A DNA stretch of 8,042 bases from Chloroflexota bacterium (GTDB taxonomy: Bacteria > Chloroflexota > Ktedonobacteria > Ktedonobacterales > Ktedonobacteraceae): the NCBI GenBank assembly GCA_005879655.1, contig VBJK01000201.1, positions 1 through 8,042 on the forward strand. The letters are read 5' to 3'. Both the position numbers and the translations under genes were made by a program. Positions 1 through 8,037 of the stretch are shown piece by piece (position 1 is the stretch's first letter; each line of letters starts with the position of its first letter). Under the pieces are notes generated by a model, which worked only from the letters and a program-made list of their open reading frames with translations, did no database searches and was not told where the DNA came from.

Positions 1-534
1 CATAGTGACCAGAGCACGTGCGATCGCCACACGTTGCTGCTCCCCGCCGGAAAGCTGATGAGGACGGTTGTGCAGACGATGACTGAGACCAACGAGTTCG
101 AGCATCTCTTGAGCACGTTTTGCCGGAGAACCATGATGCTTACCTACATAGAGCGGTACTTCCACATTTTCTTGCGCAGTAAGCGTAGGAATCAGGTTAA
201 ACCCTTGGTAGACCATGCCAATCTTTGCATTGCGGACAGCTGCCAAGTGCGCCTCTTTCATATGCGTGATATCTACCCCCTCGATGAACACCTGCCCTCC
301 CGTAGGCGTATCTAGACCCGCCAGAATACCTAAGAGGGTCGATTTTCCTGAGCCAGAGGGACCAACAATCGCCAGTAACTCGCCATGTTCGACAGTCAAA
401 CTAATCCCTTTCAAAATAGGAAGCATTCCCTGGCCGAAAGCGAAGTTTTTTGTAATATTGCGCCCCTCCAATGCATATCGCTTTCCAGTATGCGTCTGCT
501 CTGTATGCAACGATGGGGTCAACTTACTCTCCAT
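1..534 (-). CDS. ABC transporter ATP-binding protein, LolD/MacB type (3' end outside window)
   Basis: Cytoplasmic nucleotide-binding subunit that would hydrolyse ATP to drive a membrane permease. Reading the minus strand from ATG at 534 gives 178 open residues that run off the window edge. Walker A is GPSGSGKST at residues 58-66, the Q-loop is VYQGFNL at 108-114, and the signature LSGGEQQRVAIARAL is at 161-175. The Walker B, D-loop and H-switch must lie beyond base 1; family members are usually 220-260 residues. The sequence style (ILAGLD, TPTGG, QLSGGEQQRVAIARAL) fits the LolD/MacB/FtsE-like group of lipoprotein, peptide or macrolide exporters rather than importers. An AGAGAGG Shine-Dalgarno lies about 11 nt before the start. 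The gene follows a lipoprotein gene by only 24 nt, so they are probably co-transcribed; a FtsX/MacB-type permease is expected next but is not visible. The substrate cannot be inferred. Confidence 0.93.
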   Translation of the reverse strand, partial: MESKLTPSLHTEQTHTGKRYALEGRNITKNFAFGQGMLPILKGISLTVEHGELLAIVGPSGSGKSTLLGILAGLDTPTGGQVFIEGVDITHMKEAHLAAVRNAKIGMVYQGFNLIPTLTAQENVEVPLYVGKHHGSPAKRAQEMLELVGLSHRLHNRPHQLSGGEQQRVAIARALVTM

Positions 535-558
535 ATGTAATTGATCCTCTCTACACAA

Positions 559-1242
559 TTACAAGACAAACAGCTGCACGTTATCAAAACAAGTCACCGA
601 GTCAGCCTTCGTCCATAGTCCAATCTTACCTGTCTTAAAACTCTCGTCATTAGCCTTAACAACCTGTTGATTATTGAGATAACCACGAATACTATTACCT
701 ATTGCCTCAATGCGCAACTCTTGCCACTTACCAGAGACAACAGTGGCCGAGCCTTCTTGGATGAGACTGCGTACGCCACCACTATACTTGAAGATATCGA
801 CGTTATTCTCAAGAGCATTGGCACGCACAATGTAATAATTGTTCTTATCCTGAATACGAAAAATAATGCCTGCTGCCTGATCGACGGCACCGGAGATTGG
901 TTTAAAGCGGACAGAGACTGCCAGATCTGTATAAGTGGCAGGACTTAAAGACAGCGCGGGAAATGTGGCCTGACCGGTCTGGCAAAGCGCATTAGGGGAA
1001 GTGGGAGCATCACTTTCCGCCCGTACTACCCAGTTACCGCTAAAAACCTCTGCGCCCGCAGGCAATCCACCACGCGGATCACTATCGAACAGCCATTGGC
1101 TAGTCACTTTCCCAGACGTATGAGGGGTCACTTTCTCAGACGTAGCGGGGGTTCCTGATCCTAATGGGGTGGATTGGCTAGCACCACAGCTGGCGAGCGC
1201 CAAGATAATTACCAGCAAGCTTACGTAGTATTTAGTGCTCAT
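559..1242 (-). CDS. Lipoprotein with concanavalin A-like (DUF1080/LamG-like) domain
   Basis: Predicted 227-residue extracytoplasmic lipoprotein. Residues 1-18 are a short signal peptide ending in lipobox LASC, so Cys19 would be lipidated. A Ser/Thr/Pro-rich linker (about 20-48) carries an 8-residue tandem repeat (TSEKVTPH, then TSGKVTSQ). From about residue 50 to the end comes a beta-sandwich-like domain with the WLFDSD start, GIIFRIQDKNNYYIVRANA near 125-143, GKWQELRIEA near 171-180 and a GKIGLWTKADS close, the pattern of DUF1080/concanavalin-type carbohydrate-binding or hydrolase-like domains. I see no clear catalytic residues, so binding is more likely than catalysis. Cys87 and Cys218 could form a disulfide. 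The start is fixed by GGAGG five nt before ATG 1242. It leads the ABC ATPase gene (24-nt gap) and has a TTCTCAT repeat promoter upstream. The domain call is by pattern only. Confidence 0.85.
   Translation of the reverse strand: MSTKYYVSLLVIILALASCGASQSTPLGSGTPATSEKVTPHTSGKVTSQWLFDSDPRGGLPAGAEVFSGNWVVRAESDAPTSPNALCQTGQATFPALSLSPATYTDLAVSVRFKPISGAVDQAAGIIFRIQDKNNYYIVRANALENNVDIFKYSGGVRSLIQEGSATVVSGKWQELRIEAIGNSIRGYLNNQQVVKANDESFKTGKIGLWTKADSVTCFDNVQLFVL
1103..1144. repeat. Imperfect 24-bp tandem duplication in the lipoprotein linker
   Basis: The 18-mer GTCACTTTCYCAGACGTA occurs at 1103-1120 and again at 1127-1144, differing at one base, with a period of 24 bp (eight codons). It encodes the repeated TSxKVT linker segment of the lipoprotein and keeps the frame. 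It looks like a recent in-frame duplication in a flexible region. Confidence 0.85.
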
Positions 1243-1304: not shown

Positions 1305-1356
1305 TTTATATCTGACGAATGAGATAGTGATGAGATCTCGATGAGAATAATGAGAA
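1305..1356 (-). promoter_or_regulatory. Promoter with four TTCTCAT direct repeats (array 1) for the lipoprotein/ABC operon
   Basis: On the minus strand, heptamers TTCTCAT (1356-1350), TTCTCAT (1347-1341), ATCTCAT (1336-1330) and ATCTCAT (1325-1319) stand with start-to-start steps of 9, 11 and 11 bp. Eight bases after the last one is a -10-like TATAAA (1310-1305), about 60 nt before the lipoprotein start. There is no recognisable -35; the repeats occupy its place, as in promoters activated by PhoB/OmpR-type response regulators. That regulator family is inference; the repeats are directly visible and recur in two other places in the window. Confidence 0.75.
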
Positions 1357-1382
1357 GGAACTTGTTATCTCAATTACAATAG

Positions 1383-1435
1383 TTCTAATACTACTTATTA
1401 TCCTTTCATGATGTTCTCATACAATGACATATAAT
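1383..1435 (+). promoter_or_regulatory. Promoter with TTCTCAT-like repeat array 2, facing the 35-aa peptide gene
   Basis: On the plus strand, heptamers TTCTAAT (1383-1389), TACTTAT (1392-1398), CTTTCAT (1403-1409) and TTCTCAT (1414-1420) show the same 9, 11, 11 bp steps as array 1, in the opposite direction. Nine bases later there is a perfect -10, TATAAT (1430-1435). No -35 is seen. Transcription would begin near 1442, leaving a leader of about 60 nt before ATG 1501. The individual heptamers are weaker than in array 1 but the spacing is identical. Confidence 0.65.
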
Positions 1436-1500
1436 ATAAGGTAAGAAGTCCATATTAACTTTAGGATAGCTGTACTATGAACATTACAGGAGACAACATC

Positions 1501-1608
1501 ATGTCTGTGAGAGATAAGCTTCTCATTGTCATAGCTTGCATAGGCATTGTACTATTGCTGATATTGGTGTGTGTGATTACCATCGTGACGATTGTGATTG
1601 CCAGCTAG
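1501..1608 (+). CDS. Small single-span membrane peptide, 35 aa
   Basis: Thirty-five codons from ATG 1501 to TAG 1606-1608. The start has a clear AGGAG eight nt upstream, and a promoter with a perfect TATAAT and a repeat array lies 65-118 nt upstream, so it is likely a real gene despite its size. The product has a short charged start (MSVRDK) followed by an almost unbroken run of Ile, Val and Leu to the end (residues 7-35), with two Cys inside the span at 13 and 23. This predicts one membrane helix with a cytoplasmic N-terminus. I do not recognise the family. Small peptides of this form often modulate a larger membrane complex or sensor kinase, but nothing here shows a partner. Its promoter design links it to the lipoprotein/ABC operon on the other strand. 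Confidence 0.6.
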   Translation: MSVRDKLLIVIACIGIVLLLILVCVITIVTIVIAS

Positions 1609-1629
1609 TGATACTAACTCAGGGAAACA

Positions 1630-1670
1630 CTGCCAATTTTGCGAGACACCCCCTCATACCTCTGCCAATT
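1630..1670. repeat. Direct repeat CTGCCAATT (two copies, 32-bp period)
   Basis: CTGCCAATT occurs at 1630-1638 and 1662-1670, just downstream of the 35-aa peptide gene. Role unknown; two short copies could be chance. Confidence 0.35.
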
Positions 1671-1686
1671 AGATAAAAAAAGAGGC

Positions 1687-1755
1687 AAATATCTGTAATT
1701 TGTTAATATTAATAGTTTTCATGAAAACTATTCAGAACAAAAACCAAAGATATTT
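1687..1755. repeat. Concentric AT-rich inverted repeat with a 22-bp perfect palindrome at its core
   Basis: Bases 1711-1732 form a perfect 22-bp palindrome centred on TTTTCATGAAAA. A second pair of arms, AAATATCT (1687-1694) and AGATATTT (1748-1755), has almost the same centre, giving one nested dyad of 69 bp with imperfect pairing between. It lies 79 nt after the 35-aa gene. It could be a transcription terminator or hairpin for that gene, a binding site for a dimeric regulator, or a small non-coding inverted repeat. Confidence 0.75.
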
Positions 1756-1780
1756 ACAGTATTTTTATTACAGTACAGTA

Positions 1781-1810
1781 CAATATTTCATATATATATA
1801 TGTCATATTG
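1781..1810. repeat. 30-bp near-perfect AT-rich palindrome
   Basis: CAATAT (1781-1786) and ATATTG (1805-1810) flank the 14-bp palindrome CATATATATATATG (1789-1802), with only the two base pairs between them failing to match. It lies 26 nt after the 1687-1755 dyad and just before a candidate promoter, so it may be an operator or an easily melted cruciform. Low-complexity TA runs make palindromes more likely by chance. Confidence 0.6.
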
Positions 1811-1835
1811 AATTTAAAAAGAATCTGCCTTGTTC

Positions 1836-1865
1836 TTGCATATCTTAATCTTGTGATGTTATACT
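1836..1865 (+). promoter_or_regulatory. Candidate sigma-70-type promoter
   Basis: TTGCAT (1836-1841), an 18-bp spacer and TATACT (1860-1865) read on the plus strand. The next convincing gene starts at 2259, so the transcript would carry a leader of almost 390 nt. This rests on consensus matches in an AT-rich stretch only. Confidence 0.35.
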
Positions 1866-2258
1866 ATCGGTAGCTAGGCAGATGCAAATCATCCTAGAAA
1901 AAACACACAATATATGTTTTTGACATAAAACACTTCTGCTTCTACAAGCAGGAAAATAGGAAGATTATGCAAGCCTACATCCATGCTTGTCATCCGAAAC
2001 CTGTATAGCGTAACATCGTATTCTCGTGCATAGTATAACAGTACTCTAGATAAGATGGGTGGCTTAGACAGAGTACTCACTAGTAGAGCGCTAGACACAA
2101 CCTCCAGCTACAAAGAGAACGTATTGCACTGTCATTCTAGATTTGTCACAGGTACAAGCTATCCAGAATGGCTGCTCAGACACTTCCAGTGGATTAACCT
2201 CTGTGACAATCTTAGCTGGACAGAGCAGTATATCACTTCATAAGAAATGGAAGCTGAT
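1866..2258 (+). other. Gene-free stretch, possible long leader of the first DoxX-like gene
   Basis: No convincing coding region is present on either strand. It contains a small hairpin CTGCTT-CTAC-AAGCAG (1936-1951), a 13-codon ORF (1967-2008, MQAYIHACHPKPV) preceded by AGGAAG that could be a leader peptide, an 8-bp inverted repeat AGTACTCT/AGAGTACT (2040-2047 and 2070-2077), and a stronger stem at 2143-2209 listed separately. Longer open frames here lack Shine-Dalgarno sites and protein-like composition. Confidence 0.4.
2143..2209 (+). other. Structured leader element upstream of the first DoxX-like gene
   Basis: TTGTCACA (2143-2150) can pair with TGTGACAA (2202-2209), continued across a two-base bulge by GGT/ACC. 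Further in, ATCCA (2161-2165) pairs with TGGAT (2190-2194). The whole makes a 67-nt bulged hairpin ending 49 nt before ATG 2259. It matches no riboswitch that I recognise. It may be a regulatory RNA structure or a pair of operator half-sites. Confidence 0.45.
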
Positions 2259-2843
2259 ATGTCACAAACATCGCCAAGGTATCTCTTTGCCATTGTACAG
2301 GTTATCGTCGGCCTTAATTGGTTGCTTACTGGACTAAACAAGCTGTTTTTCGGCAGTTTTCCTCAAAGCTTGGGCAACGCGTTGCGCACTGGTGCGGGTG
2401 TTGCTCCGGCTCTTGGACACAACCCGAACGGCTGGTATGACGCTTTTATACAGGCATTCATCTTGCCGAATAGTCTTATTTACGGCTACTTGATCGAATG
2501 GGGCGAGGTCTGTACTGGAGTAGCCTACCTCATCGGTGCCATCTTGCTACTAAGTTGGTCGCAGCAAAAGGGCCGCAGCTCCCTCTGGTCAGCCAGACTG
2601 CAACTGATTATGACCACTGTGCTAACTATCATCACAACATTCATGTGTCTCAACTTCAACTTTTGGCGTGGAAGAACACTTCCATTATTCGATCCCAAAT
2701 TCGCCTATGGCCCCATCTGGGAAGCTAATCTGATCCTCCCAATAGTTTCCCTTTGTCTTTTGATCGTCAGCGTGGGCGTATGGCAAGAAGCAATGCGCAC
2801 ACTGGCATCAGTCCCTCTACAGAAGAACGCAAAGAATACATAG
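2259..2843 (+). CDS. DoxX-like membrane protein, paralogue 1
   Basis: A 194-residue integral membrane protein with four likely spans (about residues 9-30, 66-100, 115-134 and 155-175). The N-terminal IVGLNWLLTGLNKLFFG, the following RTGxGVAPAL loop and the GYLIEWGEV segment, with its conserved Glu in the third hydrophobic region, fit the DoxX/DoxD-like superfamily. Members of that superfamily are linked to terminal quinol oxidases and thiosulfate:quinone oxidoreductase, though most are uncharacterised. In-frame ATGs occur at 2247 and 2259. I chose 2259 because GGAAG lies five nt before it and because MSQTSPRY then lines up with the start of the neighbouring paralogue (MLSKTPRY). Thirty-five of the first 60 residues match that neighbour by eye without gaps. 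The C-terminus is basic and probably cytoplasmic. No redox cofactor motif is visible, so function is not assigned beyond family. Confidence 0.8.
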   Translation: MSQTSPRYLFAIVQVIVGLNWLLTGLNKLFFGSFPQSLGNALRTGAGVAPALGHNPNGWYDAFIQAFILPNSLIYGYLIEWGEVCTGVAYLIGAILLLSWSQQKGRSSLWSARLQLIMTTVLTIITTFMCLNFNFWRGRTLPLFDPKFAYGPIWEANLILPIVSLCLLIVSVGVWQEAMRTLASVPLQKNAKNT

Positions 2844-2964
2844 GCGAAGCGCTGGCCTAACAGGTCTCCCCCTCTTCTCTCATTAAGTAGAGAGCAGAAG
2901 CAAGACCGACCTAGCTTCGCATGACTAGGAACAGCGTCCTGTAAAAAGTGCTTGTAAATATAGG

Positions 2965-2970
2965 TATGAT
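2965..2970 (+). promoter_or_regulatory. Possible -10 element before the second DoxX-like gene
   Basis: TATGAT lies 35 nt before ATG 3005 in an AT-rich stretch, but no good -35 is seen 16-19 bp upstream. The 161-nt gap after the first paralogue, which contains small hairpins such as CCTAG/CTAGG, suggests the second gene may have its own promoter. Weak evidence. Confidence 0.25.
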
Positions 2971-3004
2971 GTGTTTCAAGACAACGAAAAAGGAAGAAGG
3001 AACC

Positions 3005-3580
3005 ATGCTTAGCAAGACACCACGCTATGCACTCATCATTTTACAGCTGATTGTAGGATTAGAATGGTTAATTTCGGGGATCAACAAGATCTTGGTTGGC
3101 ACGTTTCCCCAAAGCCTAGCCGTGGCATTGCGCACGGGTCACACAGTGGCCCCAGCACTCGCGCACCATCCTCGTATGTGGTACGCCACATTCTTGCAGA
3201 CTGTGATCCTACCCAATAGTCTCTTTCTCGGCTACCTGATTATGATTGGAGAGGTCACTATCGGCACACTGATGCTGATTAGTGCCGTATTATTACTAGG
3301 TTGGCCGCTACGAAGTGGTACGCTTAGTCTGAGTGCTGCTCGCTGGCAATTCGTCTTCACTGCTTGTGCTACAGTGGTAGGCGTCTTTATGGATATTAAC
3401 TTCAACATTTGGAAAGGAAAAGTGTTACCACTCCCTCTCATTAATACAAAAGCAGCCTTCCTTCCCGTCTGGGATGGCACGATTATGCTCATTCTATTAG
3501 CACTTACCCTTTTTGCATTTAGTATCGTCTTGTGGCGTGAGGCAGAGCAAACGGCATCCGTAGAACGATCAGCCAAGTAG
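3005..3580 (+). CDS. DoxX-like membrane protein, paralogue 2
   Basis: A 191-residue integral membrane protein, same fold and length as its upstream neighbour: hydrophobic spans near residues 9-30, 66-100, 115-134 and 155-176. Shared signatures include PRY, QLIVGLEWLISGINK, FPQSL, ALRTG, VAPAL, ILPNSL, the GEV glutamate at residue 83 and NFNxWxGxxLP at 132-142. This indicates a tandem duplication followed by divergence. The start at 3005 is chosen over more upstream in-frame starts because GGAAGAAGG lies directly before it and because it matches the paralogue. The basic-acidic C-terminal tail (WREAEQTASVERSAK) is probably cytoplasmic. Two adjacent copies may form a heteromeric membrane complex, but that is inference. 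A stem-loop CAAAAGG/CCTTTTG (3602-3608 and 3619-3625) lies 21 nt after the stop. Confidence 0.82.
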   Translation: MLSKTPRYALIILQLIVGLEWLISGINKILVGTFPQSLAVALRTGHTVAPALAHHPRMWYATFLQTVILPNSLFLGYLIMIGEVTIGTLMLISAVLLLGWPLRSGTLSLSAARWQFVFTACATVVGVFMDINFNIWKGKVLPLPLINTKAAFLPVWDGTIMLILLALTLFAFSIVLWREAEQTASVERSAK

Positions 3581-3601
3581 CCGACACACGAGAGATACGA
3601 A

Positions 3602-3625
3602 CAAAAGGACACGAGGGACCTTTTG
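3602..3625 (+). terminator. Possible terminator hairpin after the DoxX-like pair
   Basis: CAAAAGG and CCTTTTG form a 7-bp stem with a 10-nt loop. The only T run is inside the 3' arm and no U tract follows, so it is a weak candidate. Confidence 0.3.
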
Positions 3626-3779
3626 CCCAACTAGTCGTTTACAGAAACTATTAAAATCTTCTTCTTAAAGAAGGCATCCTGTTGCAGTACCCTCAAACGG
3701 GTTGAGAAAGGACATTGGCCCCGCCGCCTTCTTAATGAAGGGAAAGTATACACACCAAATCCGAAGGAGTCAAGCGGAA

Positions 3780-3809
3780 AGACATCCTGGGAATACTCTT
3801 GGGATGTCT
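3780..3809. terminator. Hairpin terminator after the cupredoxin gene, possibly bidirectional
   Basis: AGACATCC (3780-3787) pairs with GGATGTCT (3802-3809) around a 14-nt loop. It begins two nt past the cupredoxin stop. On the minus strand the stem is followed by TTTCC and on the plus strand by CTTTATT, so it could serve both the cupredoxin operon and the DoxX-like genes. Both U tracts are short. Confidence 0.5.
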
Positions 3810-3811
3810 CT

Positions 3812-4129
3812 TTATTGCACAATCACGGTGAAATTCATCTCAGCATGTACAGAGCAATATAAATTGAAGATCCCACTAGTGTTGAATGGACCAATACTAT
3901 GACTGTCATTGCTATTGAATGTGACGTTAACAGCTGGTGCTCCGCTCTCAATCTTTTTTTGGACTACAATAGATGACTGCGTAAAATCGGCATCACTCAT
4001 GTGTACAGTATTTTTCTCAATAACCACTGGACCAGATGTACCACATGCAACAAATACCAGTATACTAACGCTCAAGAGTAAAAAAACCATGATGAGTCTT
4101 CTTTGACGCGCTTTCTTGGTGATACACAT
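3812..4129 (-). CDS. Blue-copper (cupredoxin) lipoprotein
   Basis: A 105-residue exported protein that probably carries one type 1 copper and shuttles electrons at the outer face of the membrane. A basic start (KKARQRR) leads into a hydrophobic segment at 12-28 ending FVAC, an acceptable lipobox, with Cys29 the likely lipidation site. The rest is a minimal cupredoxin: VHMSDADF near 42-49, then copper ligands His77 (in NDSHSIGPF) and the Cys92-x2-His95-x2-Met98 cluster (YCSVHAEM), ending in a final strand FTVIVQ. The frame is open farther upstream, to 4282, but that extension overlaps the neighbouring gene and gives a non-exported start. The ATG at 4129 follows AGAGGAG by about 11 nt and gives a proper signal peptide. 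It lies 26 nt after the small membrane protein gene and close to ctaA, consistent with a role in respiratory electron transfer or copper supply to an oxidase. Confidence 0.85.
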   Translation of the reverse strand: MCITKKARQRRLIMVFLLLSVSILVFVACGTSGPVVIEKNTVHMSDADFTQSSIVVQKKIESGAPAVNVTFNSNDSHSIGPFNTSGIFNLYCSVHAEMNFTVIVQ

Positions 4130-4155
4130 GGGCGCATACTCTCCTCTAAGCAAGC

Positions 4156-4506
4156 TTAAAGCACGACGACGCTGGTAAAGAACGCCAGTACGGTGAGCAG
4201 CACCTGGATCTGTGCCCAACGAGCAGGCGGCTGACGAAGGGCTGCATACATACTCAGAGAGAAATATACCACAACAGGGCATAGCATATCGTTAGGGCTA
4301 ATGCCTGGAATAGGATCATCATTCAAGAGAGCTACGTTGGCTGCCATTCTCCATGCAAACAATGCGAAGCCAACTACAAGAGCAATGATGATGCCATCAT
4401 AGACTGGAAAGGTTTTGGCACGCTGGCGCAAGAGCAGAAGAGCAATCAAGCTGGCAATGAATGCAACTATTGCCGCCAGCAGAATTTGCCAGATAGGAAA
4501 AGGCAC
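4156..4506 (-). CDS. Small polytopic membrane protein, unknown function
   Basis: A 116-residue protein, mostly hydrophobic, with about four predicted spans (roughly residues 6-24, 37-55, 74-88 and 97-115). Short loops contain an RQRAK basic patch and a GISPNDMLCP segment just before the third span. I do not recognise the family. GTG codons at 4512 and 4506 are both in frame. The 4506 start is preferred because GGAGG lies five nt before it, whereas the same site overlaps the 4512 start. It is the first gene of a two-gene unit with the blue-copper lipoprotein (26-nt gap) and is divergent from ctaA, so a role around the respiratory chain or copper handling is plausible but not shown. Its promoter carries the third TTCTCAT repeat array of the window. 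Confidence 0.7.
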   Translation of the reverse strand: MPFPIWQILLAAIVAFIASLIALLLLRQRAKTFPVYDGIIIALVVGFALFAWRMAANVALLNDDPIPGISPNDMLCPVVVYFSLSMYAALRQPPARWAQIQVLLTVLAFFTSVVVL

Positions 4507-4556
4507 AATCACCTCCCATGGCTTATGTGATAGATCACTGAGAACTCCTCATACCT

Positions 4557-4610
4557 ATGGTATCTGCACAGAGTAAGAAGAGCATGAAAAATTGATGAGA
4601 AAAATGAGAA
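4557..4610 (-). promoter_or_regulatory. Promoter with TTCTCAT repeat array 3, for the membrane protein/cupredoxin operon
   Basis: On the minus strand, TTCTCAT (4610-4604), TTCTCAT (4601-4595), TTTTCAT (4590-4584) and TTCTTAC (4579-4573) show the same 9, 11, 11 bp steps as the two arrays near 1319-1420. Ten bases after the last heptamer is a -10-like TACCAT (4562-4557), about 50 nt before the GTG start. The first two heptamers are identical to those of array 1. The array ends five bp from the candidate -35 of ctaA on the other strand, so the bound factor could also affect ctaA. Confidence 0.7.
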
Positions 4611-6563: not shown

Positions 6564-7628
6564 GTGTGGGACATGAAAAGTTGTATAGAGGAGCGATTCA
6601 TGCATAACGAAATAAAGCAGGGATTGCCGCAAGAACAGATGGTGGCAGGTGAAAGATCCATTTTACCATCTGGTCCTTCTGCTGTTACTGCGGAACCTCC
6701 CGATCCACAGGAGACGCCCCATCTTCCTCTGGTCCATACGCATACCCTCACTGATCAATCAAGCTTGATCGAGTGTGTTCTTCCCTATCGGCAAGAATTG
6801 ACGCTACGTGGTAGGTCAAACTATACAGTCACCTGTTTTCTTTCAGACCTGAAAATGTTTAGCGCTTTCGTCGGTCAGGATACCCCAGTGGGACGGGTGA
6901 CGAAAGAGCATGTGACTGACTGGCTCATGAAACTAAAATTTGGCACTGAGGGCCATACCCCTGCCCCAAAAACGATGGCGCGCCGCATTACGTTTCTGCG
7001 CAACTTCTTTTCCTGGCTCGCGCAAGAGGGTGTGATCAGAGAAGATCCTTCTGCTAGCCTAGTCCTAGAGCGGCCACAACCCCCTTTGCCAGAACTCTTG
7101 TCAGCAGACGAAATGCAACGCTTGCTTGTAGCAGCTGCCGAGGACATACGCTGCTATTGCTTAGTCTTTCTGGTGTTACATGCTGGATTGAAGAAGGAAG
7201 AAATTATGGCGTTAAAAGTACACCATATTGATCTCTCCGATCCACAGATACCAACAATAGCCGTACATTTCTCAGCACTAACAGGTAAACAGCATCGTGA
7301 ACGGCAGCTTGTCCTACCACCTAAGTTTACAAACATTTTTACAGAATATCAAAAAGATTATCGTCTCACCGAGAGGGTCTTTGAATGTACTCATCGTAAC
7401 CTCAACTATATTCTCACTAGAGCAGTGCATGCGGCAAAGATCGAGAAACGTGTCACATTACAATTACTCCGTGACACCTTCGCTGTAGAGCAACTGAAAA
7501 CTGGTGTCACACCTGAAGTTCTGCGCGAAAAGCTTGGCCTTTCAGATGAAGCTTGGCTGGAAGCCAGAATAAAGTATCGTCGCTTGGCCTTTCCTAATAC
7601 GAAAAAGCAACGAGCAGTAGACGAATAG
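6564..7628 (+). CDS. Tyrosine recombinase-fold protein with degenerate active site
   Basis: A 354-residue XerC/XerD-like protein. Residues 1-62 are a polar, Pro-rich extension; about 66-165 form the SAM-like N-terminal core-binding domain (IECVLPYRQELTLRGRS through FLRNFFSWLAQEGVIREDPS); about 175-345 form the catalytic domain. Active enzymes use Arg-Lys-His-x2-Arg-His/Trp-Tyr. Here the first Arg is Lys210 (AGLKKEE), the hairpin Lys may be Lys242, the HxLR His is Gln300 with Arg303 kept (QLLRDTFA), the LGH His is Leu326 (LGLS), and the nearest Tyr is Tyr338, three residues farther away than usual. Strand cleavage is therefore doubtful; a DNA-binding or structural role is possible. GTG 6564 has AGGAGG five nt upstream; ATG 6600 (GGAG, six nt) is an equally good start and loses only part of the extension. 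No attachment site or partner mobile gene is visible. Confidence 0.85.
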   Translation: MWDMKSCIEERFMHNEIKQGLPQEQMVAGERSILPSGPSAVTAEPPDPQETPHLPLVHTHTLTDQSSLIECVLPYRQELTLRGRSNYTVTCFLSDLKMFSAFVGQDTPVGRVTKEHVTDWLMKLKFGTEGHTPAPKTMARRITFLRNFFSWLAQEGVIREDPSASLVLERPQPPLPELLSADEMQRLLVAAAEDIRCYCLVFLVLHAGLKKEEIMALKVHHIDLSDPQIPTIAVHFSALTGKQHRERQLVLPPKFTNIFTEYQKDYRLTERVFECTHRNLNYILTRAVHAAKIEKRVTLQLLRDTFAVEQLKTGVTPEVLREKLGLSDEAWLEARIKYRRLAFPNTKKQRAVDE

Positions 7629-7697
7629 TAGACGAATAAGCTAGCCTATAGAGAGGGTGTCACCCCTTCTGGCTAGCTTATTCGTCTACTATTCGTC
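7620..7697. terminator. 27-bp perfect inverted repeat spanning both convergent gene ends, likely bidirectional terminator
   Basis: Bases 7620-7646 are exactly complementary to 7671-7697. The 24-nt loop folds further: AGAGAGGGTG against CACCCCTTCT, with two mismatches and a one-base tip. The arms cover the last three codons, stop included, of the recombinase and the last seven, stop included, of the minus-strand gene, which is why both proteins end in VDE. The left arm also contains GTAGACGAATA twice in tandem (7618-7628 and 7629-7639). There is no U tract on either side. It probably stops transcription from both directions, although the length of perfect identity is unusual for a terminator. 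Confidence 0.8.
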
Positions 7698-8037
7698 GAG
7701 GTGGCATATGCCTCTGCTGATGGTGTCGCATCATGATGAACTTTGTTGCTTTACGGTTGAGTGCTCTATTGAGTAATAGCGTATTGAATATAATGACAGC
7801 GATAGCCAATGGACCCAAGCAGATGAGACCCAAGCCGAGTGTAAAAATCGTACCCAAGATGACAAACGGCCAGTAAATGAGAACGCTACCAAGGAGCAGA
7901 ATGACACCAATAGCGGTTTCTCCGGCCATCAGCCAGCCCACGCCAAAAAGGCCAAAGAGTGACAGAATAATCTCTGCGATGAGTGCGCTGTCATTTTTGT
8001 TAGAGAACGTGATTTCCTGGGCAAATGGGGCAGGCAT
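7678..8037 (-). CDS. Small membrane protein, TM2-like, unknown function
   Basis: A 119-residue protein with a polar N-terminus (about 1-18), three hydrophobic spans (about 19-38, 41-59 and 62-90) and a basic, His/Arg-rich tail (KATKFIMMRHHQQRHMPPRRIVDE) that is probably cytoplasmic. The opening helix pair (LSLFGLFGVGWLMAGETAIGVILLL) recalls the TM2 or related small-membrane-protein pattern, but I cannot assign a family with confidence. ATG 8037 lies five bases from the window edge, so its ribosome binding site is not visible and the true start could be farther upstream; the frame is open to the edge. The gene converges on the recombinase-like gene, and its last seven codons lie inside the shared inverted repeat. 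Confidence 0.7.
   Translation of the reverse strand: MPAPFAQEITFSNKNDSALIAEIILSLFGLFGVGWLMAGETAIGVILLLGSVLIYWPFVILGTIFTLGLGLICLGPLAIAVIIFNTLLLNRALNRKATKFIMMRHHQQRHMPPRRIVDE

Follow-up and report, generated by a model that had tools for sequence, protein, structure and literature searches.

Which protein could read three similar arrays of short repeats, each facing a different gene, within a few kilobases of DNA? The question is raised by an 8,042-nucleotide stretch (hereafter the window; contig VBJK01000201.1, assembly GCA_005879655.1) from a Chloroflexota bacterium of the family Ktedonobacteraceae, in which four TTCTCAT-like heptamers recur with the same 9-11-11 spacing in front of three putative promoters. 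We consider it probable that the three arrays are class II operators of one OmpR-family regulator, most likely the orthologue of a self-regulated CopR/CusR-like protein. Binding, activation, the signal and the identity of the regulator in the source organism are what we infer from the sequence.

Three Heptamer Arrays in the Window

The array pattern consists of four TTCTCAT heptamers whose starts lie 9, 11, and 11 bp apart, 38 bp in all. Listed from the distal to the promoter-proximal heptamer, array 1 (1319..1356, minus strand) reads TTCTCAT (1356-1350), TTCTCAT (1347-1341), ATCTCAT (1336-1330), and ATCTCAT (1325-1319). Array 2 (1383..1420, plus strand) reads TTCTAAT (1383-1389), TACTTAT (1392-1398), CTTTCAT (1403-1409), and TTCTCAT (1414-1420), and array 3 (4573..4610, minus strand) TTCTCAT (4610-4604), TTCTCAT (4601-4595), TTTTCAT (4590-4584), and TTCTTAC (4579-4573). 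Below, heptamers 1-3 are the three that share the 11-bp period, and the distal heptamer is the one 9 bp upstream of them.

A sequence-only reading of the window had reported these arrays; positions and spacing proved exact, with 26, 23, and 25 of 28 nucleotides matching four copies of TTCTCAT in arrays 1, 2, and 3, respectively. A scan of the window with the 38-bp pattern gave 0, 3, and 2 mismatches for the same arrays, and no match was found in any of 200 dinucleotide shuffles of the window. The next-best position in the window scored 19/28 and the maximum over 500 dinucleotide shuffles was 21/28. All three arrays, including array 2 as the weakest, thus stand above shuffled window DNA.

Heptamers 1-3 are direct and have an 11-bp period in every array, as in a PhoB-type class II operator of the OmpR family. 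The distal heptamer is likewise direct in 3/3 arrays, so the inverted 7-2-7 repeat of CusR/CopR sites is not present in the window. A -10-like hexamer follows the last heptamer after 8-10 bp, the spacing predicted if the array takes the position of the -35 element as at class II promoters. The putative hexamers are TATAAA for array 1 (1305-1310, minus strand; spacer 8 bp, or 10 bp with the alternative TAAAGT at 1303-1308), TATAAT for array 2 (1430-1435, plus strand; spacer 9 bp), and TACCAT for array 3 (4557-4562, minus strand; spacer 10 bp), all as proposed earlier. The claim that each array faces a gene was also borne out, since by eye a start codon preceded by a Shine-Dalgarno-like motif lies 50-65 bp beyond each hexamer (ATG 1242, ATG 1501, and GTG 4506). 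Arrays 1 and 2 stand back to back in a single intergenic region, 26 bp apart and reading outward, while array 3 points away from the gene for heme A synthase (COX15-CtaA in a Pfam scan).

A Conserved Core in the Nearest Class

The search for relatives began from a contig of Roseiflexaceae, phylum Chloroflexota. The nearest class is represented by 47 genomes, among them 17 (5.0-13.7 Mb) with a COX15 50-60% identical to that of the window. Three copies of TCTCAT at the 11-bp period were found 40 times in the 47 genomes, compared to 18 times for the reversed pattern, and several of these matches had a -10-like hexamer 10 bp past the last heptamer. When the hexamer was included (TCTCAT-N5-TCTCAT-N5-TCTCAT-N10-TAnnnT) there were 53 matches in 29/47 genomes, and only five for the reversed pattern, four of them in one genome. 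This is an approximately tenfold enrichment over the reversed-pattern control. Because a heptamer of the window served as the query for the relatives, the similarity of the heptamers is partly built in, and the genomes are related, which makes the counts non-independent. The independent signals are the reversed-pattern control, an inverted heptamer at position -9, and the association with a regulator gene.

Fifty of the 53 core matches were examined, three overlapping duplicates being dropped. An inverted heptamer ATGAGAA (at least 5/7 nucleotides) was found exactly at -9 in 20 of these 50, a position absent from the search pattern, and it was seen both in the 25 matches picked as promoter-like (11) and in the 25 others (9). 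Elsewhere in the range from -24 to -7 the inverted heptamer occurred in at most two matches per half, and a direct heptamer at -9 was found in none of the 50. The cleanest of the relatives' sites have the form ATGAGAA-N2-TTCTCAT-N4-TTCCAAT-N4-TTCTCAT-N10-TACNCT. A pattern that includes the inverted distal heptamer matched 19 times in 15/400 Chloroflexota genomes, 18 of the matches being in the nearest class, compared to zero matches for the control. What the relatives keep is therefore the 11-11-N10 core and, in part, an inverted heptamer at the 9-bp position; the 9-bp step of the window is a recurring subsite position occupied in the opposite orientation.

One relative (G125) carries an intergenic TTCTCAT-N2-TTCACAT-N4-CTATCAT (locus L101), flanked by genes for a mannosyltransferase-like and a lipoprotein-like product. 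It is one of the matches to a direct 9-11 pattern of three heptamers and could be a site with a direct distal heptamer outside the window.

Association With a Response-Regulator Gene

At two loci in the relatives (L206 and L207) the arrays are located directly upstream of a gene for an OmpR-family response regulator with a receiver domain and a winged helix. At L207 the regulator gene is followed by reading frames that by eye resemble a split histidine kinase. An orthologue at least 69% identical to this regulator is present in 26/47 genomes. The best NCBIfam model for the L207 regulator is cztR_silR_copR (TIGR01387), with 241.5 bits against a cut-off of 279.2, which leaves the protein outside that subfamily as the model delimits it.

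We scanned 27 loci encoding regulators at least 60% identical to this one with a profile made from 12 arrays, using a threshold of 15. Fourteen arrays not used for training were located within 320 bp upstream of a regulator gene (8.4 kb in total) and came from 11 of the 27 loci, compared to four in the other 87 kb. Nine of the 14 were on the strand of the regulator gene and five were divergent, and the arrays at six of the loci (L219-L224) are closely similar to each other. When two training loci are included, 13/27 regulator loci have an array within this distance. In one shuffled copy of each of 30 loci the maximum score was 6.2. At three of the loci without an array at this distance (L235, L237, and L238) one lies 1-2.2 kb from the regulator gene. 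Seen from the arrays, a response-regulator gene was present in 9/50 array loci but in only 1/58 control pieces (2-4 kb fetched in each case), a comparison that overlaps with the 27-locus test.

The relatives' profile also bears on the window. Cut to heptamers 1-3 and trained only on the 12 relatives' arrays, it ranked arrays 1, 3, and 2 first, second, and third among 15,978 window positions, with 0, 0, and 2 background positions, respectively, scoring equal or higher among 367,092. The profile is not fully independent of the window since its training matches came from the TCTCAT pattern search. The ranking favors binding of the window arrays by a regulator of the same family.

Two loci (L244 and L246) encode other OmpR-type regulators, approximately 52% identical, with upstream direct repeats TTGTCAT and CTGTCAT at 11 bp and a -10-like hexamer 10 bp further on. 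This suggests that there are several self-regulated paralogues with diverged heptamers.

Genes Behind the Arrays

Twenty proteins encoded downstream of arrays in the relatives were scanned; they came from 27 promoter-like loci, at distances of 25 to 420 bp, and some of them are perhaps not true targets. Ten of the 20 were of envelope type. These were the undecaprenyl-diphosphatase BacA (G329), an MprF-type lysyl-phosphatidylglycerol synthase, a PAP2 protein, two cases of GtrA together with a glycosyltransferase 2, a further glycosyltransferase 2, a YkcB-type mannosyltransferase, a trypsin-like (HtrA-type) protease, a DoxD-DoxX-Rieske protein (L191), and a YceI protein. By eye, undecaprenyl-diphosphatase-type genes were located behind arrays in G365 and G359 as well, which places this gene type at four loci (L182, L194, L102, and L103) across three genomes. 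The other ten proteins comprised the response regulator itself (two), a helix-turn-helix protein with a 3-keto-disaccharide hydrolase domain (one), two that did not fit (RuvX and CxxCxxCC), and five without a family.

In the window, the first gene behind array 1 (559..1242, minus strand) encodes a lipoprotein-like product with a 3-keto-disaccharide hydrolase domain (PF06439, E 4.7e-11), whose translation by eye begins with a lipobox-like N-terminus. It is followed by a gene for a LolD/MacB-type ABC transporter ATPase (1..558, minus strand; PF00005), which is truncated by the window edge; its best NCBIfam model, LolD, gave 169.7 bits for this incomplete protein, below the cut-off of 307.75. Array 2 faces an open reading frame (ORF) for a hydrophobic peptide of 35 amino acids (1501..1608, plus strand), preceded by AGGAGA, with an alternative form of 43 amino acids (1477-1605). 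When compared to approximately 5.8 billion proteins, the 43-amino-acid form matched solely itself (P0004), on three contigs, and is thus an orphan. Behind array 3 are a small membrane protein (4156..4506, minus strand; GTG 4506 behind GGAGG, with GTG 4512 as an alternative start), for which no Pfam or NCBIfam match was found, and a cupredoxin-like lipoprotein (3812..4129, minus strand). The latter had no Pfam match itself; a homologue (P0003, 45% identical) has PF00127, which we take to be the copper-binding/plastocyanin family. Features common to the window and the relatives' targets are the 3-keto-disaccharide hydrolase domain and, by eye, the DoxX-like kind of protein, encoded in the window by two tandem genes.

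These two genes lie between arrays 2 and 3 and encode paralogous membrane proteins (2247-2843 and 3005-3580, plus strand); neither had a Pfam or NCBIfam match and they have no array of their own. An inverted repeat (ATAGTAGACGAATAAGCTAGCC), noted by eye at 7620-7700 between a tyrosine-recombinase-like gene and a convergent ORF (7678-8037), is probably a bidirectional terminator. A scan of viral sequences gave a single AT-rich match that was unrelated, and comparison with plasmids gave no match.

Proposed Mechanism and Alternatives

In the mechanism that we propose, an OmpR-family regulator bound to the array would replace the -35 element in class II activation. Winged-helix monomers would bind head to tail on heptamers 1-3, ending approximately 10 bp before the -10 hexamer; these tandem monomers would fill the -35 region, contact RNA polymerase, and activate transcription upon a kinase signal, while the distal heptamer would take one extra monomer. 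The regulator would be an orthologue of the CopR/CusR-like protein that is widespread in the nearest class, where the same core precedes envelope genes, and the signal would probably be envelope or redox/metal stress. The sequence-only reading had put forward a PhoB/OmpR-type site in place of the -35 element, shared by a regulon. The general form of that proposal is supported by the enrichment of the core and its location near regulator genes, but the motif is tied to a CopR/CusR-like regulator and not to PhoB as such. No phosphate-uptake family was found among the window genes or the 20 relatives' proteins scanned, and the heptamer is TTCTCAT and not the CTGTCAT of an E. coli-type pho box.

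A number of observations weigh against one shared regulator of this kind. The all-direct 9-11-11 array was not found in any of the 400 Chloroflexota genomes at up to three mismatches, nor in any of the 47 genomes of the nearest class when the third heptamer was allowed to be degenerate, and the direct 9-11 half with three heptamers was not enriched in the latter (eight matches compared to ten for the reversed pattern). The distal heptamer of the window is direct and not inverted as in the relatives, and in the relatives themselves 30 of the 50 core matches lacked a clear inverted copy at -9, and six had a direct copy at -11 instead. Fifteen of the 50 lay within a mechanically called ORF of at least 90 amino acids and may be due to chance, and some of the 50 are orthologous copies from sister genomes. 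Of the 26 loci with a regulator at least 69% identical, 16 had no non-training array within 320 bp upstream (L217 and L227 hold training arrays there and 14 hold none). There is no regulator gene inside the window, and clear orthology between its genes and the targets in the relatives is lacking. With the full profile of the relatives the highest score in the window is 10.2 (array 3), below the threshold of 15 used for the regulator loci.

The strict array was also sought in more specific places. The strict pattern was absent from all 16 genomes of the order to which G170 belongs. Four orthologues of the lipoprotein, distant relatives with 37-61% identity, had no array of at least 19/28 upstream, one of them (L008) having a single weak triple (14/21). 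The expectation that orthologous promoters keep the spacing, set beforehand as a refuting test, therefore fails in its strict form. Around COX15 in 16 genomes synteny was mostly lost; the top array score was 20/28 (L092), a cupredoxin-like match was located next to COX15 in L084, and DoxX-like matches were found in L085. The exact three-heptamer form had six matches among 84,980 species, scattered over six groups of which one belongs to Chloroflexota (Roseiflexaceae), which is close to chance expectation. Within the genomes searched, the strict 9-11-11 array is private to the lineage of the window.

It could be argued from these results that the arrays are a coincidental resemblance or ordinary AT-rich promoter sequence, the more so as array 2 reaches only 23/28. 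We regard this as highly improbable and strongly disfavored, since none of the 500 window shuffles reached a score of 22 and the core and its spacing to the -10 hexamer recur in relatives above the reversed-pattern control. An activator of the SARP/BTAD type, which has a winged helix and acts in Streptomyces antibiotic clusters, would fit the layout in so far as SARP sites consist of directly repeated heptamers, separated by 4-15 nt, that overlap the -35 element (PMC10972967). The relatives' arrays associate with two-component regulator genes, however, and SARP binding is in our view very unlikely.

A different OmpR-family paralogue, one that binds all-direct subsites, would account for the turned distal heptamer of the window and has to be considered. 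Candidates are at hand, as 1 to 18 regulators per genome match the query regulator at E ≤ 1e-45 in the 47 genomes, and the regulators at L244 and L246 have their own direct heptamers with the same geometry. Against this, TTCTCAT, the N10 spacing, and the 9-bp distal position all match the CopR-like regulator's own arrays, and we find a separate paralogue unlikely, although more plausible than SARP binding. The all-direct window sites would thus be served either by such a paralogue or by the CopR-like regulator itself, if it tolerates a distal subsite in the flipped orientation. It is conceivable, if doubtful, that in this lineage the distal subsite of one envelope/redox regulon was flipped from inverted to direct at each target seen in the window (3/3) with its position kept. 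The regulator would then assemble as an all-tandem tetramer with a 9-11-11 step, where the inverted form would take a palindromic pair and two further monomers in tandem, in a natural switch of assembly mode across a regulon.

Comparison With Known Systems

Among the open papers listed by our searches we found no described two-component regulon for Ktedonobacteria, the bacterial group of the window, and no response-regulator operator with direct repeats from Ktedonobacter. Titles and beginnings of abstracts, among the matches listed, gave no description of a TTCTCAT response-regulator operator.

In PhoB-dependent promoters of E. coli the -35 element is replaced, and the -10 element follows approximately 10 bp on. 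The E. coli pho box consists of two direct repeats of 7 bp, each with a spacer of 4 bp to give units of 11 bp, and its heptamer is CTGTCAT (PMC4415409). The window arrays resemble it in their 11-bp units and related heptamer; they differ in the heptamer itself and in having a fourth subsite 9 bp and not 11 bp upstream.

The CusR box of E. coli (AAAATGACAAnnTTGTCATTTT) contains ATGACAA-nn-TTGTCAT in a 7-2-7 layout (PMC11195947), and the distal pair of the relatives' sites, ATGAGAA-nn-TTCTCAT, has the same layout. AgrR sets a precedent for a CopR-type regulator that uses both kinds of repeat, since at some of its operators the inverted repeat is accompanied by direct repeats in phase with it; AgrR autoregulates and is possibly a type II activator (PMC7380067). 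The best NCBIfam model of the relatives' regulator points to the same group, although below its cut-off. Unlike the CusR/CopR/AgrR sites, those of the relatives and the window carry two additional direct heptamers with the 11-bp period, the direct distal heptamer of the window leaves no palindrome, and the targets seen in the relatives are envelope genes and not metal efflux. The likeness to SARP sites lies in heptameric direct repeats overlapping the -35 element (PMC10972967); the differences are that the linked regulator is a receiver-domain response regulator and that the distal heptamer is inverted in many arrays of the relatives.

For a group in which our searches of open papers found no regulon described, the arrays provide a concrete operator, a candidate regulator, and a set of genes under putative two-component control. 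They also offer a natural comparison, with the distal subsite inverted in the relatives and direct in the window at the same position, which bears on how far OmpR-family regulators tolerate head-to-tail versus head-to-head binding. Tandem class II operators are a kind already known; what is new is the all-direct orientation of the window arrays.

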